A DNA stretch of 64,000 bases from Candidatus Reidiella endopervernicosa (GTDB lineage: Bacteria; Pseudomonadota; Gammaproteobacteria; GCF-013343005), in the NCBI RefSeq assembly GCF_013343005.1, contig NZ_CP054491.1, forward strand, positions 2,524,501-2,588,500, written 5' to 3'. Both the position numbers and the translations under genes were made by a program. The notes beneath the pieces were generated by a model. The model made no database searches. It worked only from the letters and a program-made list of their open reading frames with translations, and had not been told where the DNA came from. Shown here piece after piece: positions 26,031 to 62,646 of the stretch. How positions within the stretch are numbered: the stretch's first letter is position 1; the number at the start of each line of letters is the position of its first letter.

Positions 26031-27069
26031 ATGTCTCACCAGCGTGAATCGACGCATAACAGCAACCAACATGCAATGCATTCTAAGATCGACCAACACT
26101 CCAGAAACATCCTCTTTTTTGGCGACCCACAGCTCGGTAGTCACCGAGGCTGGCAACGCTTCTTAACCTATTTTCCCAATGCAGAGCATTTAATCTGGAA
26201 CAAAGGCACACCCAAAGCACCACTTCACCAAGCACTACGTCAGAAGCACTGGGACATAACCATATCCTTCTATAATGACTTCATCTTCGAACATGATGAT
26301 TTTCCCTTTCTCGGACTCCCGCTCAATCTACATCCCGCGTTGCCGACCATCCGCGGTGTTGGTCACGACCACATACCATTGATAGAGGGCCATCCGGAGC
26401 ACGGCGGCACACTGCATTATCTTCAGCAACCCCCACGACTTTGGCAAAATGCCGCCGATGTGATCGATAACGGCAGGGTCATTCGCACTCGAAAGCGAGA
26501 GCTATCACCGCTCACGAACGCTGACCGCCATGGAGAGCGAAGTGAGGGCGGTTAGTCCCCGATAGTCGACGCCGTCTGCCTATTCGTAGTTGAGAGCGCG
26601 AGCGAACGACGGAGAAGATGCAGCAGCGGCTTTATGTCGGCGTAGAGTCACTGAGGGAGTTGTGTAGAGCCGCGAAGAGGTGATTACGCAACGAACGCAG
26701 GACGGTCGGGGCGCCGCAGGCATAAACGGTCGCGTGAAGTTTTGCTGTTTGCTTGGGCTTGGATGCCCAAAACAAACTTTCGCAAAATAGCGACTCCCCG
26801 GCTACGCTGAGATCCGAAGTGCCAACCAGGAGATCATGCTCGAGATGCTGAGTGAGCTGTGCGAGCAGCTGTTGTCGTGGGGATCGGTCGAATCTGTCCA
26901 ACAGGCGTTAGATGTAGAAGCGACGGAGAACGGGCACAGCTGGGGAAAACGTTATATCGGTCACTCTGAAAGAGACATTATCCTGAACACCCTCAGGTTG
27001 TCAGACCCGAATCACCGCGCCCTTGCTATCGGCAATCAAACAGAGCTTCCGCTACTTTCCAATGCCTGA
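26031..27069 (+). pseudogene. Formyltransferase-like gene interrupted by a 283-bp element
   Basis: The 5' part (26031-26518) encodes a formyltransferase-type N-terminal domain: ILFFGDPQLGSHRGWQRFL, then LPLNLHPALPTIRGVGHDHI and GGTLHYLQQ, the pattern Asn-x-His...Gly...His of the catalytic core seen in methionyl-tRNA and sugar N-formyltransferases. The 3' part (26802-27069) supplies YAEIRSANQEIMLEMLSEL and the C-terminus. Joining 26518 to 26802 gives one uninterrupted 251-residue protein (junction ELSPLTN-YAEIRSANQ). With the insert, translation stops 14 codons into the element. The 3' end overlaps the convergent ATP-grasp gene by 34 bases. A role in formylating an amino sugar is inferred from neighbours only. 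Confidence 0.75.
26519..26801 (-). mobile_element. Copy 1 of a 283-284 bp repeated element, in the formyltransferase gene
   Basis: Reads on the minus strand from CCGGGGAGTCGC to GGCGGTCAGCG, the same as four other copies in the window. No ORF of note, no terminal inverted repeat. The flanks show no target duplication: joining them restores the host frame exactly. Relative to the host gene the element lies in reverse. The two ends each fold: an outer GTCGC/GCGAC stem enclosing a TGGGC/GCCCA hairpin at one end, and CTAACCGCC/GGCGGTCAG at the other. Confidence 0.9.
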
Positions 27070-29782: not shown

Positions 29783-30468
29783 GCCGACTTGGTCATCAAC
29801 ACCCAGCCTCGACCTGGATGGTTACAGATGACACTGTACTTCAGCTTCTTCCTCAACTCACCGAGCAGGTTCTTCAATGCAGACTCGGTCACCAGCTCAT
29901 TCGGCCAGATAGTTTTACTGATCTCCGGCTTGCCTATAACTCGATGGGTATTGGACAACAACAGCTCAAGCAGCTGGCACTCTTTACCACCGAGGCTAAC
30001 CTCTTCGCCATCGACGAAGAGCAGTTTGAAAAGTGGTTGGTAGGTGATCTCATCGGAGATTGCGATCTCTTTTATGAGTCGCTCCAAACGGGCGGCAACG
30101 CGTTTTAATACCGGCTCAAGCTTCTTAAAACTGAGGGGCTTAGTGATATAGCCATCAATCTGTAGATTGGCCGCCCGAAACAGATACTCTTTATCGGTAT
30201 AGGCACTGAGCACGATGACCGGAATCTCACAATTTCTGGCGCGGATTTTCTCAATCAATGACAGACCATCAATACCGGGCATCTCAATATCAGTAATGAC
30301 GACATCGAATGAATCAGTAGCAAACATCTCCAATGCCGATTCGGCATCGTAGGCGAGTGAGATCGATTTAAAGATGGTGGAGAAGAGCGCGTTCAGCTCT
30401 GCATGGATGTGGCGATTGTCATCTACCAGCAGCAGATTGAGATGTTTAAGAATTATGTTTTCGTTCAT
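29779..30468 (-). CDS. Response regulator with winged-helix output domain
   Basis: A 229-residue DNA-binding regulator. The receiver domain (residues 10-125) shows LLLVDDN (acidic pocket), VVITDIEMPGIDGLSLIEKI with the phospho-acceptor Asp, VLSAYTDK and ITKPLSF (conserved Lys). The C-terminal OmpR-like winged helix has LGGKECQLLELLLSNTHRVIG and LVTESALKNLLGELRKKL. It is the first gene of the pair and lies downstream of the giant autotransporter; whether it controls that gene is only a contextual guess. Confidence 0.9.
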   Translation of the reverse strand: MNENIILKHLNLLLVDDNRHIHAELNALFSTIFKSISLAYDAESALEMFATDSFDVVITDIEMPGIDGLSLIEKIRARNCEIPVIVLSAYTDKEYLFRAANLQIDGYITKPLSFKKLEPVLKRVAARLERLIKEIAISDEITYQPLFKLLFVDGEEVSLGGKECQLLELLLSNTHRVIGKPEISKTIWPNELVTESALKNLLGELRKKLKYSVICNHPGRGWVLMTKSA

Positions 30469-30809: not shown

Positions 30810-33800
30810 CTAGAAAGGCAGACTCAGCTTGATCATGCCACGTCTGGCATCGATTCGATCCGACCGAATCATGCCGTACTGAAGCTGTACGGTGTAGTTT
30901 TCGCGCGTCAGATAGTCGAGGCTCAGTGAGCTGTGGTAGGTGGTATCACCCAGATTAATCGCCACAATCATCGGATCAATTCCATCTGGCGCCCCCTCTA
31001 GACCCGCCCAGACCGATGTGGTTGGCTCATCGATATAGAACTGCGCCCCCAGATTGGCCGACAGGCGTAGTCTGTCGCCCGAGTTAAACTCCACCTCGTG
31101 ACCGAAATCGACCGCTGGCCTCACCCAACCGAGCGTCTCATCGTGCTCATAGAAGGTCAGACTAAGCGGACCCGCCCCTGTCTCATTGGCGGTCTCAGAT
31201 GTAACACGGGTCAGACCAATATCGAATTGGGGCCTGAAGTAGCTGCGCTCACTCTCAAAGTCGTAGGAGAGGCGCAGTAACGCACCCAGGGCATCGGTCT
31301 CACGCTCTACCACGGTGGCAAAGGGATCGACTACCACACCGGTACGCTCAGTATCGCTGCTGTTCCAGCCGTAGGAGAGTGCGGCGGCCAGCTTGGTCGG
31401 GCCATAACTGCGCTTCAGTGCCAGACCAAGATGTCGTGACACCCCTTCAGAGACCCACTGACCGTTGAAGCCCTTGGAGTGAATGCCTTCGTTTGAGAAG
31501 CCAACACCGACCGACCACTCATTCTCCAGTCGCTGCTGTGCACCCACGGCAACACGTTGGCTGGTGTGATCGATCTGCTTGTAGTCACCGTAGGCGCTGT
31601 GTACCGCCTCGCCCTTCTCAACCACACCCCAGCTGCAGCTCCCTTCACGATTGAAGCGATAGGCGCCATCCGTCTGTTTGCAGCTCATCATGCGCTGGCC
31701 AAACTCCTGGCTACCACTAATCAGTCCCACCTGCTGTGCACCGTAGAAGTCTGGCGACATCTGCGAGAGGGTATTGCGGTAGGTTTCCATGTTATCGGTA
31801 TAGAGCAGATTGACCACGGTATCGGCCAGTGCCTCAGTGCTGCCCGCCGCCTGTACCCGGTTAAAGTAGTCGCCTACCTCATTGAGATTGTCGCTCATGC
31901 CGCTTGGCGAGAAGTCGACCTCATAGTCGAGCACCGCACTATTGGCCGTTGGGTAGTTCACCTCATAGGTGATGACCATCGATGGCGCGGTAGTCAGGAA
32001 CATACCGCTGTCTGTCACGCCCTCTTCACCGGTAAAGATATCCTTCTGGAACACTCCACTCGGCACCAGCTGTGGGTTAAGCAGCCTCACATCGATCTCA
32101 CCCGCCAGATCGGCTGCACCACTCATCGCGATGTTGTCGATCAAATCGGTACCAAAATCGAGTTCCGCATAGGTGATTCCCGTTGCAGACTGGGTGAAGC
32201 TGCCACTCAGCGTGGTCGGCTGTGCCAATCCAGTATCACCGATATAGAGCAGACCATCATTGAGCATCAGGTTCTCCCAACCACCCAGCGAAAGGGTTGG
32301 CCCTGAGACAAAGATCGCATCCTCATGGTTATTGAAGCTGTTTGCACCACCACCCAGATCGAACTGACCGTAGATGAGTCCGTAGTTATCGATTCGGTCA
32401 TCACCCGTTGAGCCAAGCAACGTAGAAGCTGCCAGCTCATCGAAGGTCATCATCGAACCGTAGTTCGTTACCCGATTGGTAGCACCTCCGGAGAGCCAGA
32501 CACCCGCGCCATCCTCACCGGCATAGAGCAGCGACTCGGCTGCCAGGGTGATTTCGATATTACCGTTACCGTCGTTTGCCTCAGACTGGGCAAAGATCGC
32601 CACACCTTCACTACCACTGGCAATTACATTGCCGGTGAGATCGAGCGAGATTGCACCGGCCATACCACTACCACCAGCGCTGCCGGCATAGAGACGATCG
32701 ACCATCCCGCCACCACCGCCGAGACTCTGAGCCACAACCGCGATAGAGCGATCACCCGAGACATTGATCTCACCCGTTTGGGTGAAGGTAATATCGCCAC
32801 CATTGCCACTGTTATCGCTGTTGAACCGATAGACGATGTCGGCCTCATCCTGGTCAGTCAGCACCAGGCCGCCACCGCCGCCAATCGATTGCAGAACAAT
32901 GCCGTGTGAAAGCTCACCCTCGGTCCCGATTACACCACTATTGACCAGTGTGATAGCGCCGCCATTTCCGACCGAACTACCCGTGGCACCAAAGACAACC
33001 TCCAGATCTTCCACTCCAGTGGAACGGATGTCACCACCACCTGCACCGATGCTCTGCAGCACAATAGCTGGCGAGCGAATACCGGCCGTCACAACATCAC
33101 CGCTGTAGGTCAGGTCGATCACACCTCCATGATCACCTACACTGCCGTCGCCACCGAGTGTGATGGTGTTGTAGACAGGTGCTGCTGCCGGCGCTGCGCC
33201 CTGTGCCTTGTAACGTTTTGCGCGCGCTGGTGCTGCTGTCGTAGTCGTTGCGGGCAGATTGGCGACCACTGAGACCTGCCCACCTCCTCCTCCAATGCTT
33301 TGCACATTGATGCCATCGGAGAGATCACCGAGCGTGTAGACGTTACCTGTTCTGGTGGCAGAGACATTGCCACCGCCACTGTTACTGGAGTTACTGCTAC
33401 CGAGATTAATCGTCACATTGGCCTGAGCATCACCATCAGCACCCAATTCGATGGTGCCACTTCCGCCACCACCACCGATCGATTGCGTAATGCTGGCCGA
33501 GGCGTTCTCACCCCAGGAGATCAGATCACCGACATGACTCGCCTCAATGGCGCTGCCAATCGCATCCTCCACCCACTCGGTACCCAGGGTAATGGGAGTG
33601 GTGATAAAGGCTATCACCTCATCGACAAAACCGTCGTTGGGATCAAGCACGACGCTATCGTCACCATGCTCAGCAGCGTTCTGGCTTAGATCGAGGAACA
33701 GTTCAACATCACCACCGCCGCCGTTGACCGACTGGGCAAAGATCGCCTGACTGTTATCGCCCGTAACGGCGATAGTGCCGGATGAGTTAACCGTGACACT

Positions 33801-36800
33801 ACCCGCAACGCCGTTACTGCCATCTTTACTACCCAGCAGCAGAGGCAGCACATAGTCTGCAGCCGTCCAGAGTGAACGGGAGATGGCGATACCGGCAGAG
33901 CCGCCACCACCGCTAACCGTCTGGGCAAAGATACCGTAGCCATTATCACCATCAACGACGATCGAACCGGTGTGATCAATGGTGATATCGCCACTGTCAG
34001 CACCATCACCGCCCCAGCCTCCGATCGCACCATCAAGCAGCATCTGTTCCTGATTGAAACCGGAGCTGGCCGTTGCATAGGCACCACTACCGCCGCCGCC
34101 CCCCACACTCTGCGCAAAGATACCGTAGGAGCCCTCACCGGTGACCTCGATCGAGCCACTGTTATCGACCGAGACACTTCCAGCAGCATTACCGTCACCA
34201 CCGCTACCGCCGATGGCGAAAGCGATCTCATTGCTCTGCTCTTTAACAGCCCCCAGCACCGTATTAATCGAGGTTGCTGAGCCGCCATTGCCACCGCCAC
34301 CGCCGATGCTCTGCGCCACGATGCCATGCGCCGCTGCACCCGAGGTGAATATACCCCCTTCGTTTATCACACCGACATCGGTGCCGATGCCACCTGTACC
34401 ACCTGCACCACCCATGCTGAAACTGAGCGAACGGTTGATTGCCGATGCCGATGTGCCAGAGGTGTGGCTAAAGGTTGTTGTGGTACTACCGTTACCGCCA
34501 CCTCCTCCAACACTCATCGCCATAATGCCGTGCGAACCATCACCCGCCGTGATTATCAGCCCGGAGTTCTCCTCACCCTCTTCGACCAGATTAGAGACAT
34601 CAACACGACCGGCAGCAGCACCCGTGCCACCGCTGCCACCAATCGTCAAACCGATCTTGTTCGAGTTTTGATCACTGGTGCCGTTAGCCGTACGAACACT
34701 GCTAATGACATGGCTCGCATTACCACCACCGCCACCGCCACCGATGCTCTGAGCAAAGATCGCCACCGATTGATCATCGATGGTCTGGATCGCGCCACTA
34801 TTGGTCACCTCAACAGCACCAGAGACTGCGCCATCGCCACCATCTCCACCCATCGCCAATGAGAGCGAGTACTGGGTACTATCTGCCTTATCTGCGGTGG
34901 CCGTCAGCAGATTTGCGGTGATTCCGGCTATACCACCACCACCACCAAGACTCTGTGCCAGGATGCCGTGTGAGAGGGTGCCATCGGTCACCACGATACC
35001 GTTGTTATCAACCGTCACCTCACTGCTCGATGCGCCGGTACCACCCGCTCCACCCATGGTAATGTAGAGACTATTGGCCTGCGGCTGGGGACCACCCGCA
35101 CGGCCCATGCCACCGGTACCGCCACCACCGCCGATACTCTGACCCAGAATACCGATCGCCGCTTCACCGCTGGTCTGTACACCCGCCTCACTAACAATCG
35201 AGATCACCCCACCGATGCCGCCCTCGCCGCCCTCACCACCGAGCGAGAGTGCTGCCTTGGTCGACTTGAATGTCGCACCAGTCGCATTACCACCGTTACC
35301 ACCGCCACCACCAACACTCTGAGCAAAAACTGCGTGCGAACCATCGCCTTCAGTCACAACAGCACCTGAGGCATCAACATCGACGCGACCCGCTGCACCA
35401 CCAACACCACCCTCAAGGCCGATAGCGACACCGAAGCCGTGAATCGGTGCGTCGGACGATTTCGGTAGACTGCCCGAGACACTGGTCGATGAACTATTGC
35501 CACCACCGTTACCGACACTCTGTGCGAGGATGCCAAAGGCATCATCACCAAAGGTATGGACCGTACCGTCTGAGCTAACTGCCACATCAGAGCCAAAACC
35601 ACCTGTACCACCCATGCGACCGATCGAGATGCCGACCTTACCGCCACTCTGTTTCGAATAGGCGATATCCATACCGGTGTTGCCACCGCCACCACCGATG
35701 CTCTGCGCCAGGATGCCGGTCGAACCGACACCGTAGGTCTCGATGATGCCGACGTGATCGACCGTAACCTCCTCGCCGTTACCACCATCTCCCGTGGCTC
35801 CACCGATGGCGACGTTGAGACCGAGGTTCTCCTCACTCTTATCCGCATAGGCCAGCGCCAGATTGAAATTGGCGTTACCGCCACCACCGCCGATGCTCTG
35901 TGCCAGCACACCCTGACTAAAATCGGCCTGGGTCAGAATATTGCCGTAGTTATCGACATCGACACGCTCTCCATGACCCGCCTCGCCACCGGCACCGCCG
36001 ATTGCCAGCTGTATCGCATAGGCGGGTTTATCGGCTGAATCAGGCGTATCGGGATCGGGATCGGGATCTGGATCGGTGTGACCGTTGCGTCTGTTTAGCT
36101 CGTCGATCACGCTGTCGAAGTTTGAGAAGACGCTCTCATCGATACCGGGATAGGTCGGATGGGTGCGAGTGGAGCCACTATCAGGCGCAGGGTCCAGATC
36201 GGGGGCTCCCCCGCCACTGCCATCGGCAAAGGTTGCTGAGAGCATCAGGTTGATACCGGCATCACCACCGCCACCGCCGATACTGGAGGCCTCAATACCG
36301 ATACTGCCCTTACCGTTGGTTGAGATAAGACCAGCATCACTCTCAGCTGTACCACGTCTTACATCAACGGCATTAGCGTCACCACCACCGGCACCAAAGC
36401 CACCGACACCGATGCTAATCGGGGAACTCTTCTGCGCAACATTGGCGCTAATGTTAATTCCACCGGTACCGCCACCACCACCGAGACTCTGGGCGTAGAT
36501 ACCCCGGGCATACTCACCCACGGTAGTAATTGCACCGGTTGTCACTACTGTTACAAGACCGGCATCTGCGCCATCACCACCATGCCCGCCGAGACCGGCA
36601 ACCAGGGTGAAATCACTCGTATCTCCAGAGTTGGCCGAATCGGCCAAAGCGCCACCTGCGGCGACATTAATGCCACCATTACCACCGCCACCAGCGATAC
36701 TCTGGGCGAACAGACCGTGAGCCCAGTCACCCTCGGTGACTACCGTGCCCTCATGCCCAATCAGGACATCGCCACTCACCGCACCAATACCGCCAAAACC

Positions 36801-39800
36801 GCCGATGCCAACTGTCACGGCAGGTGTTGTACTCTCCTTGCTGATCGACATCGATCCGCTGATATTAAGCGCACCGTTACCACCGCCACCGCCGATACTC
36901 TGGGCGACAATCGCTGAAGAGCCACGCCCCCAGGATGAGGTATCAGCCACGGCATCGAGCGTCACGTCACCACCCGTGCCACCATCGCCACCCAGACCAC
37001 CCAGACCACCCAGACCAAAGACGATCGGTGCATCTGAGGTCATCCCTCCACTGATATTGATGCCACCATTACCGCCACCGCCACCAACGCTCTGTGCCAG
37101 CAGTGCCGAGTGTTCATCACCAAAGGAGTCGATCGTTTCACCACCAGTCACCGTCAGGTCGACACCACCTCCCGATCCACCATCACCACCAAAGCCACCA
37201 ACACCGACCACCAGTGCGTGGCCATCACCACCCTTGCTGTAGGAGACACCACCGCTGATGTTGATCGCACCGTTACCTCCACCACCACCGATACTCTGCG
37301 CGACGACACCGTGTGAGCCGCCAGCCGCTTTGGTGACGTAATGCGCAGGGATAACCTCTTCGGTCTCGGGATCGATCGACTCTGCCACCAGTTCTCGCGC
37401 TAGTGCCGAGACGGTTCCATCAAAGTCGAGATCAACACTGCCCGCATCACCACCACCCGCGCCGAAGCCGCCGATACCGATCGCAGCCGAACCACCGGTT
37501 CCAGTATTACTGAGCGAGAGTGCGCCACTGATATTGGTACCGCCGTTACCACCACCGCCACCGAGCGACTGCGCCATCACCCCGTGTGAATTGGCACCAC
37601 TGGTATTCACTACACCACTACTGTCGAGGGTGACATCACCAGCATCGCCACCACCACCACCAAAACCACCGATACCGACGGCGATTGAGGCACCGCTATT
37701 ACCCGTTATATTGGCCGTGCCTGAGATATTGGTGCCACCATTACCACCACCGCCACCGATGCTCTGTGCCACTACGGCACTGGCATCATCACCCGCAGTT
37801 GCGATAACGGGCCGCGCCTCGGTTGCCGTAACACGGCTGATGACACTGCCGGCATTACCACCATCACCACCAAATCCACCGATACCGACGCCGACGCCGA
37901 CCACGCCACCATTACTCTTGCTGAACGACGCCGCACCTGTGACGCTATTACCACCGGCACCACCACCGCCACCAACACTCTGCGCCAGGATTGCGCTTGC
38001 ACGATCACCGCTGGTGACAACACCGCCGGTCACAGTGCTATCAACAGCACCCGCCTGACCACCACCGCCACCAAAACCACCGATACCTACAGCAACCGCA
38101 CCGCTACCGGTACTGACCGCTGATATCGAAGCGGAGACAGTATTACCACCGCTACCGCCACCACCGCCGATGCTCTGCACCAGCACGCCCATGGCATCAT
38201 CACCTCCGGTTTGAACATATCCGGTCACACTACTGAGCAGATCACCCGAGAGCCCACCCGAGCCGCCCGAGCCGCCGATACCAACCGTGATGGCACCACT
38301 GCCGCTGCTTGCTCCGGAGAGCGCACCAGCCACCGACATACCGCCGTTACCACCGCCACCACCGATACTCTGCGCAACCACGCCCGAGGCGCTATTACCC
38401 TGAGTCGTCACGCTACCCTCAACCGTTGAGGTCACACTATTTGATGCACCACCACTACCACCGCTGCCGCCCAGACCTACCGATACCGATCCACTACCGG
38501 TACTCGTACCAGAGATAGTGCCGCTTACAGAGAGACCACCATTACCGCCTCCGCCACCCACTGACTGTGAGAGCACCGCAACGGAGTTATCACCTGAAGT
38601 CGCGATAGTGCCGGTGACGCTGGTATCGACGATACCGCCCACTCCACCCGTTCCACCCGAACCACCAATTGAGACGGCGACACTGCCGCTACCGGTTGCC
38701 GCGCCCGAGAGTCCGGCTGAGATGTCATAACCACCGTTACCGCCACCACCGCCGATGCTCTGCGCGATCACGGCACCAGAGTTGTCACCCTCAGTGGTGA
38801 CATCATTAGTCACGCTGACGGTCACCGTTGAACCATCACCCCCCGATCCACCGCTACCTCCCAGACCGACACTGACGGTGCCACTACCGGTACCCGCACC
38901 AGAGCCCGAACCGGAGATGTTGTAACCACCACTACCGCCACCACCACCGACCGACTGTGCCAGCAGGCCGACGGACATCTCGCCGAGGGTATGGATATTC
39001 CCACTGGTGGTTACATCGACAGTTCCGGCCGAACTACCCGAGCCACCTGAGCCACCCAGACCAACGCTGACCGAACCACTGCCGACACCGGCGGCCGCCG
39101 CACTACCAGAGATGTTGTAACCTCCGCTACCGCCGCCACCACCGATGCTCTGTGCGATCAGCGCTGCGGAGCGATCGCCCTCGGTATAGAGCGTACCCTC
39201 AGTCACTACCGAGACATCACCTCCTGCACCGCCGGATGATCCCTGGCCACCAAGCCCTACCGATACGGCACCACTGCCGGTACCTGAGAATGCAGAGCTG
39301 CCGGAGATGTTGTAACCACCACTACCGCCACCGACGCTCTGTACCAGCACCGCTACCGAATCGTCTCCATAGGTGGAGAGATCGGCCAGGATATCGAGTG
39401 CGTTGACCTCACCACCGTCACCGCCGCCACTGCCACTGCCACCCAGTCCGACACTCACCGCGCCACTACCAGTACCAGCAGCTGCACCACTGGCGGTGAT
39501 TGAATAACCACCGTTACCACCGCCACCACCAACACTCTGCGCAACAAAGGCGTTCGAGTTACTGCCACTGGTAGAGATACCGTTACCATCATCATCAACG
39601 CCGCTGACATTGACGCTGACATTGACGCTGCCACCGTCACCGGCCGCACCACCGCTACCACCCAGCCCTACCGATACGGCACCACTACCAGAGCCAGAAC
39701 CCGACAGCGTGACGGTAATTGAACCGCCGCCGTTACCGCCACCACCGCCGACGCTCTGTACCAAAATGCCGGTAGCGTTAGAACCTGAGGTTGAGAGGTC

Positions 39801-42800
39801 GCCACTGTAGTCGGCAGTAACACTATTGCCATCACCACCCGTGCCACCCGAACCACCCACACCCACGGAGACCGAACCACTGCCGACACCGGCACCTGCC
39901 GCTCCGGCAGAGATGGTCAGGCCAGCGTTACCGCCACTGCCGCCGACCGACTGAATAACCGCACCATCCGAACCGTCACCCTCGGTCTGAATATCGACCG
40001 TGAGCTGCGCATTGACCGTGCCACCGCTATCGCCATCACCGGCACTACCTCCAACCCCGGCCGCAACCGCACCACTACCCGCACCGGCACCCGCTGCCGC
40101 ACCGCTTACGGTCATACCACCGTTGCCGCCACTGCCACCGACACTCTGAATCACTATCGCATCAGACTGATCGCCACGGGTGTGTGACTGCCCATCAAGC
40201 GTTACATCGACGTTGCCACCGACACCCCCGGTACCCGCATCACCACCGACCGCAACTGAGACAGCACCACTACCCGCCGCCGCAAGGCTGGCAGAGGCAG
40301 AGACCGTGGTTCCACCATTGCCACCGCCACCACCGACGCTCTGTGCAACAAAACCGTGTAGAGATCTCCTCCGGGAGTCGCTATTTTTGCGAAAGTTTGT
40401 TTTGGGCATCCAAGCCCAAGCAAACAGCAAAACTTCACGCGACCGTTTATGCCTGCGGCGCCCCGACGATCCTGCGTTCGTTGCGTAATCACCTCTTCGC
40501 GGCTCTACACAACTCCCTCAGTGACTCTACGCCGACATAAAGCCGCTGCTGCATCTTCTCCGTCGTTCGCTCGCGCTCTCAACTACGAATATACAGACGG
40601 CGTCGACTATCGGGGACTAACCGCCCTCACTTCGCTCTCCATGGCGGTCAGCGGAGGTGTTGATATTCAGGGTGCTATCAACATCGACTATGCCGCCGTC
40701 ACCACCACTACCACCCTCTCCACCCAGCGCCACCGACACGGAACCACCCGAGACACCTAACTGAGTCGCCGATGAGACGGTCAGCCCTGCATTACCACCA
40801 CCGCCACCAACACTCTGCAGCAATACACCCGTCGCACTATCACCACTGGTGGTGACTGCTCCGCCGGTACCATCGAGTTCAACTCGACCGCCATCACCAC
40901 CACTACCGCCATCACCACCCAGTGCGACTGAGACCGCTGCGAAGGTACCAACGGTTGCCTGAACCGTGGTGCCGCCATTACCACCGCCACCACCAACACT
41001 CTGTGCCAACACACCCACTGAACGGTCGCCGAGTGTGGTCAAAATTGAGGGAATCTGACTACCGCCTGAGTCAAAGCTATCCATGGTGACGGTAACCTCG
41101 GCACCGTCACCACCCGAGGCACCTGAACCACCGATTGCCAGTCCACCGATAACGGAACCGGAGTAGCTCGATCCACCGTTACCGCCACCGCCACCGATTG
41201 CTTGAGCAACGATGCCAAAGGCGTCGTTGCCCGCCGTTGAGATGATGCCACCGTGACTCACCGTGACATGGTCGGCATCACCACCCGAACCACCACTACC
41301 ACCAATCGTGATCAGGCCGCCGCTGCTACCACCATCACCACCGCCACCACCAATACTCTGGGCGAAAATTGCGGTCGATTTATTGCCGAGGGTTGAGATC
41401 GATCCATCATTATCGATGGTGACCGCATTGGCGTTGCTGGTTGAACCACCGGAGCCACCGATCGCCACCAGTCCACCTGAACTACCACCGGCACCACCAC
41501 CACCGCCGATGCTCTGGGCAAAGATGCCACGCGCCAAGTCACCTTCAGTACTCAATGAACCACTATTGCTCACCGAGACCACACCGCCCGTGCCACCGGC
41601 AGTGCTGCCGCCACCCAGTGCAACCAGTCCACCCGATGACCCACCACTACCACCACCACCACCGATACTCTGGGCAAAGATGGCATCGGCACCACTCCCT
41701 TCAGTGGTGATCGAACCCGTTGCGGTGTTGGTCACCGTCACCGTGCCACCATTACCACCACTGGAACCGCCACCACCCAGCGCAACCAGACCACCCGAAC
41801 CACCGCCCGAGCCACCGCCGCCGCCGATACTCTGCGCAAAGATGCCGCGTGCATCGACGCCTGCGATTGAGAGCACACCGCTGTTGGTGACGGTCACGGC
41901 CGCACCGTTACCACCGGAGCTTCCACTACCGCCCAGTGAGACCAATCCACCACCGGCATTGGCCGAACCGCCACCACCACCGATGCTCTGTGCCTGAACC
42001 GCGTGTGCACTAATACCCAGGGTTGTCACCAGGCTACCGGCATCATTGGTTATCTCGACACTACCGGCGTTATCACCCGTTCCGGCCGAGGCACCGAATG
42101 AAGCGATACCACCCGCACCACCACCATCACCACCGCCGCCACCGATGCTCTGAGCAAACACACCGACTGAGTAATCCCCATCGGTATAGATCTTCGCCGT
42201 TGAGGTATTTGTTATAGAAACTGCACCACCGGTTCCACCGGTCGTGGCATCACCACCAAAAGCGACGATGCCGCCTGCATCACCACCGTCACCACCAGTG
42301 CCACCGATGCTCTGACCAAAGACGCCGTGTGCACCCTCGCCACGCGTGTGAACCGTACCGAGGTTGGTAATCGTTACCGAACCACCATTACCGCCATCGG
42401 CACCACTACCACCAGCCCCGACGATGCCCCAACTATCACCACCACTTCCCGCGGCACCACCAACACTCAGGCCGTAGATTCCGTGTGAACCCTCGCCAAA
42501 GGTATTGATATCGGCCTCATTACGGATATTTACACTACCGCCATCACGCGCCTCACCACCTGAACCACCACCAGCGAAGATATAGCCGTTACCACCATCA
42601 CCCGCGATGCCACTCTGGCTATAGGCAAAGATTCCCTCAGCATGATCGGCCGTGGTTGACACGTCGGTCTTATTTGTCAGCGAAACGCTTCCGCCATTGC
42701 CGGCATTGCCACCTGAATAACCATCAAAGACACCATAGGCGTCACCACCGTCACCACCATCACCACCGACGCTGGCAACAGTAATTCCGGGGGTCTCCGC

Positions 42801-43511
42801 AGATGTGGAATTGATCGTGCCATGCGTCGTCTCCACGACGCGATTGATGGCCGGACCGGTCGCTCCATCGTCACCATCCGAACCCGCCTTACCGATCGTG
42901 AAGCAGCCAAAAAAACAGATCTCAATGCCGTAGGCGTTACCACCATCATCACCGTCTCTGCCGGTTGAAACCTCATCGATGACACCCGAGGTGGCCACCG
43001 GCGCAACAAACTCCCCAGCACCCGCTCCGCCGCCACCGCCACCGTCGACGACATAGCTGGTGTACACGTCCTTAGACGTTGCGACCTCATCGACATCAGC
43101 CGGATCGAGTTTTAAGAAGACGCTAACAACATGACCCGCACCGTTCGTACCCGTAGAAACAATCGTGTAGATATTACTGCCGCCAATCTCCTGAACGGTT
43201 TCTCCAACTGTTGTCTTGGTCAGAAGAAAACCACCATCACTGGTCACCACATACTGAATCTCGCCGGAGCTGGCAGGAATCAGTTCGACAACGGTGGTAT
43301 CGAGTCCGGTCACTGGATTGAGAACGGTGTCACCTACGTTACTCGCAGGTGTGGGTGGAACAGCCGCTGATGCAGAAACACTAAAAAGCAGCAGAAACAG
43401 CACAACCGCTGTTAACAGCAGGTATCGAATAGAAGAGGTATTGGGATGATTAATTCGAGAATATGCTGAGCGAGCGCAACCACTAGACGCAGGGTTCGTC
43501 GTGTTATTCAC
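30810..43511 (-). pseudogene. Giant glycine-rich autotransporter adhesin, interrupted by a 283-bp element
   Basis: The 5' part (43511-40654, GTG start, ribosome site AAGGA) has an extended signal peptide (YLLLTAVVLFLLLFSVSASAAV). Dozens of repeats of about 50-70 residues follow, built around (V/I)xAQS(V/I)GGGGGxGG with intervening SGxGSVSVGLGGxGGxGG and T-GD motifs; such repeats form beta-solenoid stalks. The 3' part (40370-30810) continues the repeats and ends in an autotransporter beta-barrel of about 300 residues, terminating in Phe (IKLSLPF). The two parts together would be about 4,140 codons. The element at 40371-40653 truncates the product after residue 953, so the truncated protein would lack its barrel. 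A further one-base lesion is needed to restore frame after excision. It is probably inactive at present; function as a surface adhesin is inferred. Confidence 0.85.
40371..40653 (+). mobile_element. Copy 2 of the repeated element, in the giant autotransporter gene
   Basis: 283 bp, nearly identical to the other copies but with one fewer G in the first G-run (CCGGGAG instead of CCGGGGAG). It lies in reverse relative to the host gene. The flanks join at codons for NINTS-GD, which rebuilds the T-x-GD motif of the host repeats, so insertion took place without target duplication. A one-base deletion some ten bases into the 3' flank shifts the frame before GFVAQSVGG. Confidence 0.9.
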
Positions 43512-43768: not shown

Positions 43769-45331
43769 TTATTGAACCAGTGATGTACGATCCCAGTTCA
43801 GCTGAAGCTGTAATAGATCAGCTTTAAATGCACCACCAAAGCTCATCATCTTGCCACCCATGAATGCCAGGGAGAGTGATTCGTTCAGCTGAACGATGAG
43901 ACCTAGCTGGGCCTGATGGATAAATCCATCATCGACATCCATATCCCCTCCTCCACTGACACCGACATCGTAACCCGCACTCAATCCAATACGATCAAGC
44001 AGCTTATAGTCGGACTCGTAAACAACACCAAACAGCCCCTCTGCAAATGAGCCAACATTTCCGCCATAGGCCCACTGTGTACTACCACGTAATCTTAGCG
44101 ACTGGCTAACCGGCATACTCAATTCAAGCCCGATGAGATGCAGCGCATCGTCATAGGCAGCTCCCTCATCGTTGAGAGAGTGATCGTCCGGTAGATAGGT
44201 TTTTTGCGTCAAGGCCGCACGCCAGTCGATTCGACTGAACTGATCAGCATCAAATAGTGCTGCATATTCTGCTGCAGTTACTGGTATTGCCGCCTGTCAA
44301 CCAATTCCGATCTCATAGGCATCCGCCTTAATTTCACCCTCGAGTGCAGCCATGCGACCTGCCATCGCTTTCACGTACCAGTGTTCGGAGAGTTCGAGAC
44401 TTAGCCCCGTCATCAGGTGTACCGTCAATCCACCACCAGTATCGATACGACCATCGCCAGCCAATCCCAGCAGTGCCTTACTCTCCCAATTGAGCCCAGC
44501 AAACAACGGAACCCTGGCACCGAGTCCTGCGGAGATGGAGGCATAACCATCTGAGCCGCCGCCCCCGGCACCGTAGAGCTCAACGCTGTTATAGAAAAAA
44601 TGCGAGAACTGGTGATCAAACTGGATACCGAGCAGATTGAAGTCGGTATTCTCCCCTGCACCACCGGTGTAGATACCACTACGGTGCATTGGGTGATCAT
44701 CATCGGTCGCGTAGTGCATCAGGCTCGGCATGATGCGATAGCGTTCCAGCTCACCCTGATAGGGAGTGACCGATTCACTGTTATCGAAGATCTGTCGCCA
44801 ACTGAACGAGTCGAGTCGCAGCCCTGCGACCAGATGTGTATCTGACGACTCATTTGCTGTGGTGTTGGGAAAATCGGTGTGGGCCACACCCATACGCCAG
44901 TAGGGACCACCCAGTTGAAACTCAAGCATGGCGTGCGCTCGGGTGATCATGCCACCACCAGGAAAGGTCAGTCCGGAACCGCCGCCGCCACCAAAGTGAT
45001 AACCGAGATCGAGCTTGAGTCGACGGCTTAATTCAAAGCGATTGCCGAGCGTCGCGCCCATGGTAAAGAAGCCCCCCTCCTCACCCACGGCACCACCGTA
45101 GCCACCAAATCCGAGGTAGCTGCTGGGCAGTGATTTGAACGGCATCAGGTCGTAGTGGAACCCGACCACCCCCATCTCATCGCCAGCCGGTAGTGGGATC
45201 ACCTCATAGGAGCTGCGCCAGGAGATCGGCATCGACTTATAACTGAGCATTTCTGCCAACGCACTACATGTTGTGAACAACAGAGGCAATGCGCTCAAGC
45301 AGAGCACCACCTTGGTAATATTTAATCTCAT
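43769..45331 (-). pseudogene. Two-repeat outer-membrane beta-barrel protein split by an in-frame TGA
   Basis: The 5' frame (45331-44297, 344 residues) has a signal peptide (VVLCLSALPLLFTTCSALAE) and many alternating beta strands. It ends in TGA at 44297-44299. Translation continues in the same frame without further stop for 175 codons to 43769. The second half repeats the first: the end of repeat 1, FKAD-like IKADAYEIGIG then TGA, aligns with FKADLLQLQLNW at the end of repeat 2. The stop therefore sits exactly where Trp (TGG) is expected. The intact protein would be about 520 residues. A real nonsense mutation, a readthrough stop or a sequencing error are all possible. Possible partner of the neighbouring autotransporter. 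Confidence 0.7.
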
Positions 45332-45367
45332 GGTCCCGTATGAAATCTGATGGGTTGAACCGTAAAA

Positions 45368-48300
45368 CTAAGGCCCAACCACCGCACGGGTGAACTGTGC
45401 AATCGAGGCTCGTGCATTGTCGTAGTCACGCAACCACTGGAAGCCGGTATAGGCCTCGGCACCGGTAGTAATCACCTTGAACCCCTTATCGACCATCTTG
45501 ACCCCTTCTGCAACACGTTCACCCGCAACGGCACCGCCCTTGATCGTGGCGATCACCACCAGTCCCTGACCGATCACATCAAAACCCAGATCGATATCGG
45601 CCTTGTAGAGTTCAAGGTCGAGCTGTTGGTTGGTCACCTGACGTTTGAATTCAGCAATCTCTGCGTAGCGATTCCTGATCAACAGATTCGAACCACCACT
45701 TTCGGATATCTTTCCGTTGCCCCATGCATTTGCCGCTGCCGTGATCGCAGTTTGTGCCTGCTTGCGATCCTCACCCATCAAGCCGGTCACAAGCTGACCC
45801 TTCCACGGTTTTCCGGCGATATCGACAACACCCTTCATCAGGATCTTCTTCAACCAGTACCAGGCAACATGTTTATGGTGGGCGACGGTGCCACGCATCA
45901 CCGACACGAAGTTCTTCTTCAGCTGTGCCATCACGAACTGTGCAACACGACCCTTAATCGCCTTGCCACCCATCAATGCAAAGTTCCCCGCCTTGAAGCC
46001 GGCCGACTTAGACATCTCATCAATCTTGAGTTTTTTATCATCGAACAGATCAATATTGGCCAGGTTGGCGAGGCCATCCATCACGTTAACCAGCGAATCG
46101 GCGAACTGTTCGGCCGCATGGTTGGCAAGATCATCACCTTCTCGCAGGGCTGCCATCAGCAGGCCGACGCGGACCAACTGATTGCGATGCAGCTCCACCT
46201 CCGCATTATTGGCGGCCGCTGCAATCTTCATCGGGAAGTAGGTAGAGAGTAGCTGTCTGATCGCACCAGCCTGATAGCCGTAGTGTTTTTTCTCCATCTC
46301 ACGTACCGCGGCACGGGCATTGGTGACGAAGTAATCGGTATCCTTGTCGTATGCGCTCACTTTGAGCGGTTCGGAGAGCACAAACTCGGCAGGACCAACA
46401 CTCTTGGCAGGATCACCATAGATCAGTTCAAACTGACCATCCGCGTTACTCTGCGCCTCCACCAACACCCGTTTCTCTTTATCGACAAGGCGAATAAAGA
46501 GACCATTGATCGGCAGCACCTCCGGCATCACCACTGTCCCGTATACGCCCTTCCCGACGGGATAGACCACCTGCCCCTTCACAACGCCATTGTTGATATC
46601 GGCCAGCGCGATGGGAATCGATTGTTGTGGGGCGTAGCCATTACGTTCAAGCTGCAGTTCAAGCTCGGCAAGGCCGAGCAGACCCGCCTTCACCTGCACC
46701 ACAAGCTCTTGCTTCTTGAGCTTGGCACGTGCGGTAAAGCGCACCTGTGGCGCCCACTTGCCCGCCTGCATCACCTCCTGTGTTATTCGTGGTGGAAGAT
46801 ACTCCACCAGCATACGACCCTCACCATCAGTAACCTGACCATTGGGGAAACGCAGCTCACCCTTTTGCGGCAACCGCTCCCAGAACGAGAGATCGACCCT
46901 CTCTCCGACAACCGCTTCACCCTCGCCATCGCTGAAACGCACTTCCATTGAGACAGCCGTCGCACCGTCGAGCACGATACCCTGCTCAAACGTGGCACCG
47001 CTACGCACCAGCTCAAAGCTTGGTGATAGCTCCTGTTTTTTGACATGGATCGTCTCCGGTGCTGGTGCACCTCCACCGCCACCGCGCAGTGAGAAGCGCG
47101 CAATACGCATATCCATGTAGCTGACGTAGATCGAACCGCGGTGGAACCAGAAATTTTTCGACCAGGCCTTGTCACGTGAACTTGTAATCGCCTTTCCCGT
47201 CAGCAGATCGATCTCTTTGAGTTTACGGCCCGCCCTGGGGCGACTGTAACGGAAATGCTGCGATTCGAGGCCCAGCGAGGCGACATAACTGAAGTCACGC
47301 AGTACCCGTTTCGCGTGGAAGTAGTAACCACGCCGATCCCCAGCCAATAACGATCGTCGGGTACCACTGGCGAGCGTCTTGTCATCCATTGAAGTCAGTT
47401 TGTTACCGGCAGGCAGCTTTCTGAGCAGCGTAACCTTGCCATCACCCGGTGCAACACTGATAACGGCCTTGAGCCAGTTCTTTCCGGTTACCTTCACGTG
47501 CAGTGTGCCGTCGGAAGCCTGAACCATCCCCTCTGCATGGGTATAGTCACTACCGACACCAGCCACCTGCGCCACGATCTCGAGTTTGCTCTCTGTAGGG
47601 GAGAACCTCGCTACTACCAGTCGGCTGCCCGATACACCCTTGGGTGGCCGCGCCTCGGCGATGAAGTAGACCCAGTCACGGATCACGATGGGCGGGTTGT
47701 GGTAGATCCACTTGTTGATCTCCTGCCAGACGGGGGGTTGATCGCGATCCATCTCCGGTTTGGCATCGGCATTGAGATCAGCAGCCGTTCTGAAGCGGCG
47801 GCTATAGCTGAACGCACCATGCGACTGGATAAACGCTCCGCTCTTGTTGTACTCGATAATATTGCCGAGCCAGATGGCGTAGAGATGGCCCTGACTATCA
47901 ACAAAGAGCGGGCGAGGATAGCCACGAGAACCATGTTTTGGATCGTCCTTGCCCAGATCGTACTTCGCCGAGAGCCGTCCACTGGGCGAGAAGCGAGCCA
48001 GCACCTTCTTCCTGTCGTGGCTGAGCTGTCCATAGATATTGCCCTGCCGATCGGTCATAAAGGCGATAAAATTCTGCTTGGGATCCTTGATCGGTGACTG
48101 TAGACGCCCTGCCGGCTCAATATCGTAGACAAAGGCGTAGAAGGAGAGGCGCTTGGAGAAGGAACCAACCTGCGGGAAGTTGGCATCCTGAAAGGTGACG
48201 GTCACCTCATTCATACCGCTTTTGACCGGGATTACTGCCTTTTTCCTACTCAATCCTCCCACATCACGACTCAGCTGGCCGGTGGCACTCATGCGTATAT

Positions 48301-48583
48301 CGTAATGTTTTCCCTCAGGCAGTTTACCGAAATACTCATGGACCGCACCGATATCGCATCGCACCACCACCTCCGGTGTTGTACCCTCGGAAACGGCAAC
48401 CACCACCGCCTCACGATACTCGATCAGTTCCGGTTTTCGATTGAAAACCCGCACCATGCCTGTCTCATCGACATCCTGGATAATGCAGTCGCGGAAGAAA
48501 TCCTCCTTGGCGTAAACGGAACTGCTCGAAACAACGATCAGTAAGGGAACTAGCAACAGATATCGAGATAGATTAATTATCAT
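45368..48583 (-). CDS. Large secreted protein with beta-propeller-like N-terminal part, function unknown
   Basis: A 1,071-residue exported protein (signal YLLLVPLLIVVSSSSVYAKE). Residues about 140-510 contain repeated units like ITDRQGNIYGQLSHD, ARFSPSGRL, FVDSQGHLYAIWLGN and RFSPTESKLEIVAQV, which suggest a beta-propeller. The middle has Ig or carboxypeptidase-regulatory-like strands (NGLFIRLVDKEKRVLVEAQSNADGQFEL). The C-terminal 300 residues are helical with hydrophobic stretches (GFDVIGQGLVVIATIKGGAVAGERV). I do not recognise a family. It begins four bases inside the preceding gene's stop (ATGA overlap), so it belongs to the same operon as the upstream exported proteins. Confidence 0.8.
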   Translation of the reverse strand: MIINLSRYLLLVPLLIVVSSSSVYAKEDFFRDCIIQDVDETGMVRVFNRKPELIEYREAVVVAVSEGTTPEVVVRCDIGAVHEYFGKLPEGKHYDIRMSATGQLSRDVGGLSRKKAVIPVKSGMNEVTVTFQDANFPQVGSFSKRLSFYAFVYDIEPAGRLQSPIKDPKQNFIAFMTDRQGNIYGQLSHDRKKVLARFSPSGRLSAKYDLGKDDPKHGSRGYPRPLFVDSQGHLYAIWLGNIIEYNKSGAFIQSHGAFSYSRRFRTAADLNADAKPEMDRDQPPVWQEINKWIYHNPPIVIRDWVYFIAEARPPKGVSGSRLVVARFSPTESKLEIVAQVAGVGSDYTHAEGMVQASDGTLHVKVTGKNWLKAVISVAPGDGKVTLLRKLPAGNKLTSMDDKTLASGTRRSLLAGDRRGYYFHAKRVLRDFSYVASLGLESQHFRYSRPRAGRKLKEIDLLTGKAITSSRDKAWSKNFWFHRGSIYVSYMDMRIARFSLRGGGGGAPAPETIHVKKQELSPSFELVRSGATFEQGIVLDGATAVSMEVRFSDGEGEAVVGERVDLSFWERLPQKGELRFPNGQVTDGEGRMLVEYLPPRITQEVMQAGKWAPQVRFTARAKLKKQELVVQVKAGLLGLAELELQLERNGYAPQQSIPIALADINNGVVKGQVVYPVGKGVYGTVVMPEVLPINGLFIRLVDKEKRVLVEAQSNADGQFELIYGDPAKSVGPAEFVLSEPLKVSAYDKDTDYFVTNARAAVREMEKKHYGYQAGAIRQLLSTYFPMKIAAAANNAEVELHRNQLVRVGLLMAALREGDDLANHAAEQFADSLVNVMDGLANLANIDLFDDKKLKIDEMSKSAGFKAGNFALMGGKAIKGRVAQFVMAQLKKNFVSVMRGTVAHHKHVAWYWLKKILMKGVVDIAGKPWKGQLVTGLMGEDRKQAQTAITAAANAWGNGKISESGGSNLLIRNRYAEIAEFKRQVTNQQLDLELYKADIDLGFDVIGQGLVVIATIKGGAVAGERVAEGVKMVDKGFKVITTGAEAYTGFQWLRDYDNARASIAQFTRAVVGP

Positions 48584-48915
48584 TTCTTATCGATCTCCTC
48601 AATTATCTGTTCCAGCTCATCGCCTGCCTGCTCCAGCGTATCGCCGAGCGATTCAAACAGTCCCGCCTGACGGATCTTGAATTTCACCCGCTTGAGCCGT
48701 TTTTTACCCACTGAGAGATCGACCCACGCCTTACCGACTGGCAGCGTCTCCTCAGCCGTTTTCAGTTTGAGCCAGAATGCCACTTCAGAGCGCCCCGATT
48801 TCAACTTCAGCGTGGTGCGTTTCACCGCTCCCTTACGTCCGGGCAGATACCAGTGGGCAATGATCTCTCCACCCTCAGGCGCCTCAATTTTGCCCACAGC
48901 ACCAATCGGCGCCAT
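48580..48915 (-). CDS. Small protein or displaced C-terminal domain of the preceding gene
   Basis: From the ATG at 48915 (MAPIGAVGKIEAPEGGE) the frame gives 111 residues, without a signal peptide. The content (GGEIIAHWYLPGRKGAVKRTTLKLKSGRSEVAFWLKLK) is of the same kind as the domain in the upstream protein (GEKLTAKWYRLD...FSFTPDKAGWRQGLYRVVIEG). The two frames overlap by 32 bases and are offset by one base. I therefore think this is the second domain of one protein, separated by a frameshift near 48900-48920, where ATGCATG occurs. A separate translationally coupled gene is the alternative. Ends ELEQIIEEIDKK. Confidence 0.55.
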   Translation of the reverse strand: MAPIGAVGKIEAPEGGEIIAHWYLPGRKGAVKRTTLKLKSGRSEVAFWLKLKTAEETLPVGKAWVDLSVGKKRLKRVKFKIRQAGLFESLGDTLEQAGDELEQIIEEIDKK

Positions 48916-49954
48916 GCATTGAGAACTTCTTGCTCTTACCCTTCGGCCCCTTCTTGCCAAGTTTTTTGGCGAGGTAGGCATCAACTATTTTAATCGCCGG
49001 CACGGGGGGTGACTTCACACTCTTTTTAGGCGTTGTAGTCGCAGCAGAGACCTTGGGACGTTTCACCTCGGGTGCAACGCCCACCTCCTGTGGAGGTCGA
49101 CTGGTGGCCACACGAGGACGTGGTGCCGCCTCCACCTCGACCAGTTTTGGTGCATTCTCTTCAACACTAAAATCGATCGATGCCACTTCAACCTGTACAG
49201 GCAAGGGAGTAATGAGCTGCTCAGGCAATTTAGCTGGTTGTGGTAAGCCGATGACAAAATCGACCTCGGTGAGTGATCTGCCCCGCCCCTCAATGACAAC
49301 TCGGTAGAGCCCCTGTCGCCAGCCGGCTTTATCGGGTGTGAACGAGAATTGCCCCTTGTCGCTACGTTTTTGTAGTTTTGCCGATGCAGAGGCAAATGGT
49401 TTCTTTGATGCGGTATCGAGGCGATACCATTTGGCGGTCAGCTTCTCTCCGGGAATGCCGTGTTCATATTCATACCGAAGGTGGATCGTTGAGGTGGTAA
49501 GGGGAAACTGATTGGAGGCCTTGGCTAACTCTCCATCACGACCGATACCAGCAGTGAAGAGTTGAATGAACCTGATATCGGCTTGCGGTGCCTGACGACG
49601 CTGTTTGGCTACCGCTTGCTCTATCGTTGAGCGGGACTTGGTGCTACTAGCCAGACGTTTAAGCAGATCCTGACGAGTCGACTCATTACCGCTCTTCACC
49701 CAGGCGAATGTCAGTGCTTCGATGACGGCTTCATCCGCAAAGAGCTGAGTAGTTTGTTGTTCAAGACTATCCTCAACCGCACGACCGGAGAGCGTTTCCA
49801 GAGGGTCACCGCTCTCACGAGTGCTTCTGCTCAGCCAAGCCTCGGCACCACGTTGATCACGCTTCTCCACCATCTGCAGAAGCGTTTCAAACTCACCTGC
49901 CCCCGCGAGGAGCGGCAGCAGCAGTAACGATATGAACAGTGCGATCACTCTCAC
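48884..49954 (-). CDS. Exported protein of unknown function, probably truncated by a frameshift
   Basis: A 356-residue frame with a clear signal peptide (VIALFISLLLLPLLAGAG). The helical N-terminal half (EFETLLQMVEKRDQRGAEAW) is followed by a beta domain (LRYEYEHGIPGEKLTAKWYRL to GLYRVVIEGRGRSLTEVDFVIGLP) and a Pro/Lys-rich linker (PRVATSRPPQEVGVAPEVKR). The last residues after KGKSKKFSM (HGADWCCGQN) do not look native, while the next frame continues with a matching domain. Start overlaps the upstream gene by four bases. Confidence 0.7.
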   Translation of the reverse strand: MRVIALFISLLLLPLLAGAGEFETLLQMVEKRDQRGAEAWLSRSTRESGDPLETLSGRAVEDSLEQQTTQLFADEAVIEALTFAWVKSGNESTRQDLLKRLASSTKSRSTIEQAVAKQRRQAPQADIRFIQLFTAGIGRDGELAKASNQFPLTTSTIHLRYEYEHGIPGEKLTAKWYRLDTASKKPFASASAKLQKRSDKGQFSFTPDKAGWRQGLYRVVIEGRGRSLTEVDFVIGLPQPAKLPEQLITPLPVQVEVASIDFSVEENAPKLVEVEAAPRPRVATSRPPQEVGVAPEVKRPKVSAATTTPKKSVKSPPVPAIKIVDAYLAKKLGKKGPKGKSKKFSMHGADWCCGQN

Positions 49955-50178
49955 TGCTGCGATCCCTTGTCCGCTTTTGTCGATGATTTCTTTTTATCAG
50001 AGCTCTTGGCTGGCTTGATCGGGACCGTCTTGATGATTACAGCACCCGCCTCATAGTCCTTGCTATCGATCGAGGCCGCGGAGATGGGGGTTGAGAATAT
50101 GAGCGTAAACAACAGCGTACTGAAGAGCATTGCCGAGTTTCGCTGCACACAGACAGGTGCGGCGCTGGAGAGCAGCAT
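49951..50178 (-). CDS. Small exported lysine-rich protein
   Basis: A 75-residue frame with a hydrophobic signal-like segment (SAMLFSTLLFTLIFSTPISAAS) and a charged Lys/Ser tail (PIKPAKSSDKKKSSTKADKG). The TGA stop overlaps the ATG of the next gene, suggesting it is the first gene of the envelope operon. An alternative start at the Met of MLFSTLLF (about residue 17) would give a more compact signal peptide. No family recognised. Confidence 0.5.
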   Translation of the reverse strand: MLLSSAAPVCVQRNSAMLFSTLLFTLIFSTPISAASIDSKDYEAGAVIIKTVPIKPAKSSDKKKSSTKADKGSQQ

Positions 50179-52971: not shown

Positions 52972-54023
52972 TCAGGCGGCCTCGTCGTCGGCGGAGGTGC
53001 GAGCACTTCCTGGTAGATAGGTCATGAGCAGATCGCGCATGACGCGAGGGTTCATCCCCTCCTGGATACCCTGAATCGCCTCCAGGATCAGTGTCTTGTT
53101 TAGTTTCTCCTCATCACTGCGATGAGCCAGCTTGTCGGCGATTGGTAGTGCAAAGGCGGTAGCGATAATAGCGCCGTAGAGGGTAGTGAGTAGCGCAACT
53201 GCCATCGCCGGGCCGATCTTCTTCGGGTCATCCATGTTGGCCAGCATCTGTACCAGACCGATCAGGGTACCGATCATGCCCATCGCGGGTGCCACATCGC
53301 CAAGTGCCTTGAAGATCGCCTGCCCCTTTTCATGGCGTTCGATGGTGCGGTTGATATCGGTGATCAGCATCGCGCGGACAAACTCGGGTTCATGACCATC
53401 GACGCAGAGCTGTACCCCCTTATTGAGGAATGGATTGGTCACCTCCTGGCTCTCCAGTCCCAGTAGGCCCTCTTTACGTGCCACCTCAGCCAGTTGCACA
53501 CCCTGCTCAACCAGATCCTCCGGGGAGTCGCTATTTTTGCGAAAGTTTGTTTTGGGCATCCAAGCCCAAGCAAACAGCAAAACTTCACGCGACCGTTTAT
53601 GCCTGCGGCGCCCCGACCGTCCTGCGTTCGTTGCGTAATCACCTCTTCGCTGCTCTACACAACTCCCTCAGTGACTCTACGCCGACATAAAGCCGCTGCT
53701 GCATCTTCTCCGTCGTTCGCTCGCGCTCTCAACTACGAATAGGCAGACGGCGTCGACTATCGGGGACTAACCGCCTCACTTCGCTCTCCATGGCGGTCAG
53801 CGTTGGCGCTTTCCGATTTATGCAGAAAGGCCTTCAGCGCAATCTTGAAGGCCGCCAGGAAATGGCCCAGGGGAAACTTCATCAGTACGACCAACAGCGA
53901 TCCACCGCCCACGATCAACAGGGAGGGAATATTGATGAAGAGCAGTGCGCTGCCGCCGAGGATAATGGCGGCGGTGATGATGCCGAAGGCACCCAATAAT
54001 CCAATTAGCGTCGCTAAATCCAT
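52972..54023 (-). pseudogene. motA: Flagellar motor protein MotA interrupted by a 283-bp element
   Basis: The 5' part (54023-53803) encodes MDLATLIGLLGAFGIITAAIILG and the first two spans through KAFLHKSESA. The 3' part (53519-52972) continues EDLVEQGVQLAEVARKEGLLGLE, the loop with charged residues, PAMGMIGTLIGLVQMLANMDDP, and the last spans (AVALLTTLYGAIIATAFALPIADKL). Joined with removal of one duplicated base at the junction, the parts give 255 residues, the PomA/MotA length. As it stands the protein ends shortly into the element, so the stator should not work unless another copy exists elsewhere. Confidence 0.88.
53520..53802 (+). mobile_element. Copy 3 of the repeated element, in motA
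   Basis: 283 bp, same ends (CCGGGGAG / GGTCAGCG) as the other copies; one C is missing from the CCGCCC run near its end. It is in reverse relative to motA. Here the flanks total one base too many for the reading frame, consistent with a one-base (T) duplication, the only hint of target duplication among the five copies. The left flank AGATCCT resembles that of copy 2 (AGATCTCCT). Confidence 0.9.
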
Positions 54024-62023: not shown

Positions 62024-62307
62024 CCGGGGAGTCGCTATTTTGCGAAAGTTTGTTTTGGGCATCCAAGCCCAAGCAAACAGCAAAACTTAACGCGACCGTT
62101 TATGCCTTCGGCGCCCCGACCGTCCTGCGTACGTTGCGTAATCACCTCTTCGCGGCTCTACACAACTCCCTCAGTGACTCTACGCCGACATAAAGCCGCT
62201 GCTGCATCTTCTTCGTCGTCCGCTCGCGCTCTCAACTACGAATATGCGAGACGGCGTCGACTATCGCGGACTAACCGCCTTCGCTTCGCTATCCATGGCG
62301 GTCAGCG
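62024..62307 (+). mobile_element. Copy 4 of the repeated element, first insertion in hypF
   Basis: 284 bp, in the same direction as the host gene, unlike copies 1-3. It is the most divergent copy, with scattered substitutions (for example GTACGTTGCG, TATCGCGGAC, four T instead of five after GTCGCTA). Flanks join as CTCGGCAT + CATGTTG, giving Leu-Gly-Ile-Met-Leu, the expected HypF sequence, with no duplicated bases. Confidence 0.9.
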
Positions 62308-62362: not shown

Positions 62363-62646
62363 CCGGGGAGTCGCTATTTTTGCGAAAGTTTGTTTTGGGC
62401 ATCCAAGCCCAAGCAAACAGCAAAACTTCACGCGACCGTTTATGCCTGCGGCGCCCCGACCGTCCTGCGTACGTTGCGTAATCACCTCTTCGCGGCTCTA
62501 CACAACTCCCTCAGTGACTCTACGCCGACATAAAGCCGCTGCTGCATCTTCTTCGTCGTTCGCTCGCGCTCTCAACTACGAATATACAGACGGCGTCGAC
62601 TATCGGGGACTAACCGCCCTCACTTCGCTCTCCATGGCGGTCAGCG
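62363..62646 (+). mobile_element. Copy 5 of the repeated element, second insertion in hypF
   Basis: 284 bp, same direction as hypF and only 55 bases after copy 4. Flanks join as GGCAAACCA + CTCGTCTTT, giving Gly-Lys-Pro-Leu-Val-Phe as in normal HypF, with no duplicated bases. It is closer in sequence to copies 1-3 than to its neighbour in several positions, so tandem duplication of copy 4 is unlikely to explain it. Confidence 0.9.

Follow-up and report, generated by a model that had tools for sequence, protein, structure and literature searches.

How long polysaccharides cross the outer membrane and are retained there is only partly understood, and it is an open question which outer-membrane proteins (OMPs) accompany each class of export channels. 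Multi-barrel OMPs have reportedly been treated as a class by Solan et al. (2021). This class is also described elsewhere (PMC11494523). GfcD/YjbH, known from the group 4 capsule and yjbEFGH operons, is a predicted double barrel that closes a short operon of overlapping genes and binds periplasmic partners (PMC8592465, PMC9603273). In gfcABCD, the overlaps amount to 1-4 bases and the terminal OMP, GfcD, binds GfcB/GfcC (PMC8592465); a role in export through a lateral gate has been modelled for GfcD/YjbH (PMC11494523). Wzi, another outer-membrane beta-barrel, is encoded with Wza/Wzb/Wzc and serves capsule assembly at the cell surface (PMC3791409).

The locus analysed here lies in a window of 64,000 nucleotides (the whole stretch of DNA examined) from the genome of Candidatus Reidiella endopervernicosa. 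It encodes a divergent member of a conserved family of predicted three-barrel proteins, found beside many export channels, including those of sulfur-oxidising bacteria and Campylobacterota; such a protein would be a new candidate part of the export machinery.

Organization of the four-gene locus

Four genes for exported proteins are arranged head to tail on the minus strand between positions 43769 and 50178, and the N-terminal export signals of their products were recognised by eye (Table 1). The small gene and the two-domain gene share the bases GTGA, a 4-base overlap, and an overlap of the same length (ATGA) joins the second frame of the two-domain gene to the gene for the 1,071-aa protein, which is followed by the OMP gene after a gap of 36 bp. 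The first-pass annotation of the window had described a possible envelope operon with 4-base overlaps; the operon and the gene order are supported, as are the first two junctions, but not the junction with the OMP gene.

Table 1. Features of the four-gene locus and its neighbour (positions in the window)
Feature	Coordinates	Strand	Remarks
Lys/Ser-rich small exported protein, 75 aa	49951..50178	-	overlaps next gene
Two-domain exported protein, first frame, 356 aa	48884..49954	-	signal peptide, first domain, Pro/Lys-rich linker
Two-domain protein, second frame, 134 aa open frame	48580..48984	-	overlaps 1,071-aa gene
1,071-aa exported protein	45368..48583	-	orphan; weak mid-protein Ig-like/CarboxypepD_reg stretch
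Outer-membrane protein (OMP), 521 codons	43769..45331	-	three homologous modules; internal TGA included
Giant Gly-rich autotransporter, N-terminal piece	40617..43511	-	neighbour, outside the set
Giant autotransporter, remainder with beta-barrel end	30810..40430	-	neighbour
Dispersed repeat (~283 bp)	40371..40653		inserted in autotransporter gene

A widespread family of outer-membrane proteins

The same genome encodes an intact paralog of the OMP (512 aa, positions 747411-748949). A profile built from the two copies detects the family in 21 of the 369 class genomes searched, among them the source genome, and matches the window OMP over its full length (E = 2e-268, ~510 positions), a value that reflects the use of this very sequence in training the profile. 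The independent homolog from Sulfurimonas (locus L062) is 41% identical to the window OMP over 485 columns. A scan with four close members yielded 38 contigs with the family, many of them from Sulfurimonas, Thiobacillus, Thioglobus and Iodobacter; the family reaches Campylobacterota, and one contig each is labelled Planctomycetota, Nitrospirota and Gemmatimonadota. The full-length alignment of the family contains 23 invariant columns, mostly Gly. The Pfam search of the OMP produced nothing but a sub-threshold match to OMP_b-brl, so that the family is effectively unannotated. In the phylogenetic tree, the window OMP groups with the Sulfurimonas homolog and one from genome G220 (L041), with L046, L065, L066 and L067 forming the sister clade. 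The window OMP is a diverged second copy that is probably decaying.

Three predicted barrels in one chain

The OMP, initially described as a two-repeat protein, consists of three modules of ~160 residues each, as profile comparison of the thirds shows all of them to be homologous (E = 6e-38 for R2-R3, 2e-18 for R1-R2 and 3e-15 for R1-R3). An AlphaFold model, obtained from 21 sequences with the internal TGA read as Trp, has a mean pLDDT of 80 and a pTM of 0.71; each module contributes eight of its 24 main strands. Residues 195-347 (module 2) superpose on OprF (Z 17.0, 124 residues, 2.0 Å) and residues 366-515 (module 3) on NspA (Z 16.2, 137 residues, 2.5 Å). Module 1 (residues 28-180) is hardly covered by the fold comparison; it has eight predicted strands and is homologous to the other two modules. 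The OMP is accordingly predicted to form three tandem 8-stranded barrels. A single 24-stranded barrel was considered and rejected for the model: larger barrels in the PDB fit the whole model only at TM-scores below 0.3 and rmsd of 17-24 Å, and this holds for the larger single barrels matched by Foldseek (Occ porins, TonB receptors and the FimD usher), all with TM-scores below 0.3.

Association with polysaccharide export

Genes for SLBB/Wza or Wzz/Wzc proteins occur near the OMP gene in 21 of 54 non-redundant loci, a fraction that is not a count of independent events given the phylogenetic clustering of the loci; all 26 control stretches taken from these genomes lack such genes. Several gene orders recur: Wzb-OMP-Wza-Wzc (L046, L065, L067), OMP-Wzb-Wza-Wzc (L055) and OMP-SLBB-Wzz (L042, L045, L048, L051, L071). 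In the Thiobacillus-type loci (L068, L074, L076, L077), the OMP gene is followed by SLBB, Wzz and a DUF3485-like gene, and these loci look like exosortase-type exopolysaccharide loci. Pfam searches of representative loci identified Poly_export, SLBB, Wzz, GNVR and LMWPc domains, with DUF3485 in L076. The intact paralog closes an exopolysaccharide cluster with SLBB, glycosyltransferase, EpsG and WecA-type genes. Over half of the OMP loci contain no export gene in the stretch examined, and the link is therefore a tendency. In four Sulfurimonas loci (L069, L072, L078, L082), a dxr-like gene precedes the OMP gene and a tsaD-like gene follows it, and polysaccharide genes are absent from the stretch.

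No polysaccharide-export gene adjoins the window OMP, and none was found in the neighbourhoods of its nearest relatives, those from Sulfurimonas and G220. Polysaccharide export is thus strongly linked to the family as a whole, but only indirectly to the window copy. The operon could instead be imagined as an independent module of the envelope or surface layer that has no polysaccharide role and in which the OMP does nothing but anchor the 1,071-aa and two-domain proteins; the neighbourhoods just described would fit such a module, and so would the tight overlaps, which suggest coupled expression, but the family overall, including the sister clade of the window OMP, is enriched in Wza/Wzc operons, and this explanation appears doubtful.

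Relationship to the giant autotransporter

The four genes had originally been proposed to partner the giant autotransporter that follows them. The two are adjacent and on the same strand, with an AT-rich gap of 257 bp (~260 bp) from the end of the OMP gene to the start of the autotransporter gene, and all four products look exported, as would be expected of a dedicated set for its assembly or surface display. The comparative evidence points in the other direction. Proteins with AQSVGGGGG repeats are encoded in two of 360 genomes of the class, the source genome and G249, and in the latter none of the four genes lies beside the autotransporter gene, nor is this genome among those that matched the OMP, 1,071-aa or two-domain queries. 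None of the other OMP loci encodes an AQSVGGGGG protein. Within the genomes searched, the gene set did not recur outside the source genome, and neither did its co-occurrence with such an autotransporter, although two genomes make a small sample. Furthermore, BAM/TAM normally suffices for type V autotransporters. A separate promoter could fit into the gap, though scans that included it gave promoter-like matches at no more than the chance level; terminator scans found none. A dedicated role of the four genes in autotransporter assembly is therefore highly improbable.

The region downstream of the autotransporter gene (28001-30468) encodes a histidine kinase, whose sensor domain is of the NMT1/THI5 type, together with a response regulator. 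Response-regulator and sensor-like genes, of a different type, also adjoin the G249 autotransporter gene (L119, 4153-6519).

Orphan proteins and probable gene decay

All members of the set had been reported to lack a recognised family. This is true of the 1,071-aa and two-domain proteins, which are orphans, but the OMP belongs to a widespread, albeit unannotated, family. For the 1,071-aa protein, searches of 369 genomes and 94 families of the class, 398 genomes of the phylum, GTDB contigs, plasmids and the PDB gave only short, weak, generic matches, and for the two-domain protein, no convincing relatives were found among 360 genomes of the class; neither protein produced a match above the cutoff in Pfam or NCBIfam. 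The genome searches covered 360-398 genomes each, with the source genome as the sole representative of its order, which limits the detection of close relatives. The propeller-like character first suggested for the 1,071-aa protein is unconfirmed: no family matched it above the cutoff, and the single-sequence structure model of this protein (pLDDT 34) is uninterpretable. One weak match in the orphan searches, on a Hymenobacter plasmid, is located upstream of genes annotated as IPT/TIG and T9SS.

Two members of the set carry apparent lesions. An in-frame TGA interrupts the OMP frame at 44299-44297, and because homology to the intact paralog continues unbroken across it, this is a nonsense lesion (or a sequence error) in one gene rather than a boundary between two. 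The two-domain protein is spread over two overlapping frames (Table 1) which, judging by the similar motif pattern of both domains, were probably joined before a frameshift; they may instead be two separate overlapping genes, since no relatives were found with which to compare the frameshift. These two lesions were already recognised in the first-pass annotation, whereas the insertion it listed with them is in the autotransporter gene and not in the set. The possible decay proposed at that stage is supported by the internal TGA and, probably, by the frameshift: together, the lesions suggest that the four-gene operon is decaying and may no longer be fully functional, with assembly error as the alternative.

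The insertion in the autotransporter gene is a copy of a dispersed repeat without terminal inverted repeats. Other copies are present in the window at 26514-26801, 53523-53803, 62024-62306 and 62366-62646, as well as in loci L006 and L007, and the genome contains at least 40 copies with 97-100% identity, against 367 first-look candidates. The genes broken by this repeat are those for the autotransporter, a MotA/ExbB-like protein, a HypF-like protein (twice) and a substrate-binding protein. An Rfam search of the repeat returned nothing convincing.

Proposed role of the three-barrel protein

With a probability of roughly 55%, the OMP is an accessory multi-barrel scaffold of polysaccharide export or retention, the window copy of which has diverged, is decaying and is accompanied by lineage-specific exported partners, rather than part of an assembly set for the autotransporter. 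A scaffold appears preferable to a channel because 8-stranded barrels are too narrow for a polysaccharide; the expected channel for the polymer would be formed by the adjacent Wza/SLBB proteins. The OMP might dock a periplasmic export channel of the Wza/SLBB type or might hold the emerging polymer at the surface, comparable with the functions attributed to Wzi and GfcD in their respective systems. In the window operon, the three exported proteins without relatives would be lineage-specific periplasmic or surface partners of the OMP. The assignment of the small, two-domain and 1,071-aa proteins as putative dedicated partners of this kind comes only from gene order.

A bolder and unlikely extension of the scaffold proposal is that triple 8-stranded-barrel proteins are an unnamed component of SLBB/Wza export in several phyla, where they form a platform of three barrels around the channel or next to it, and that the window copy is one that has been co-opted, together with new exported partners, for a different surface system.

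Comparison with known systems

Single 8-stranded barrels such as OmpA/OprF, OmpW and NspA have the fold of OMP modules 2 and 3, and no sequence relationship to the OMP is detectable beyond the sub-threshold OMP_b-brl match. Wzi, compared here by description only, has one 18-stranded barrel, in contrast to the 24 strands in three modules of the OMP model, and a Pfam match to Wzi was found neither in the window OMP piece nor in the intact paralog.

The resemblance to GfcD/YjbH is closer. In both cases, a multi-barrel OMP comes last and a small exported protein first in a set of overlapping genes (PMC8592465, PMC11494523), and GfcD/YjbH is linked to polysaccharide export, as is the OMP family (PMC8592465, PMC11494523). 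The architectures differ in that GfcD has a periplasmic domain between barrels of 12 and 13 strands, whereas the 24 strands of the OMP model fall into three similar modules, with no central globular domain; the Pfam search for YjbH was negative for both the window OMP piece and the intact paralog. Although the gene order and the 1-4 base overlaps are those of gfcABCD, it is most improbable that the window set is an operon of the GfcABCD/YjbEFGH type (a small exported protein, two periplasmic proteins and a terminal multi-barrel OMP), given a third protein of 1,071 aa, three 8-stranded modules instead of 12 + 13 strands, and the lack of Pfam matches to the YjbH, GfcC and GfcB families. Judged by its sequence, the OMP belongs neither to the Wzi family nor to the GfcD/YjbH family, the latter being its nearest known analogue. 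Like the described multi-barrel class, the OMP is predicted to combine several barrels in one chain, and with this three-barrel architecture it joins the few multi-barrel proteins that are linked to polysaccharide export.
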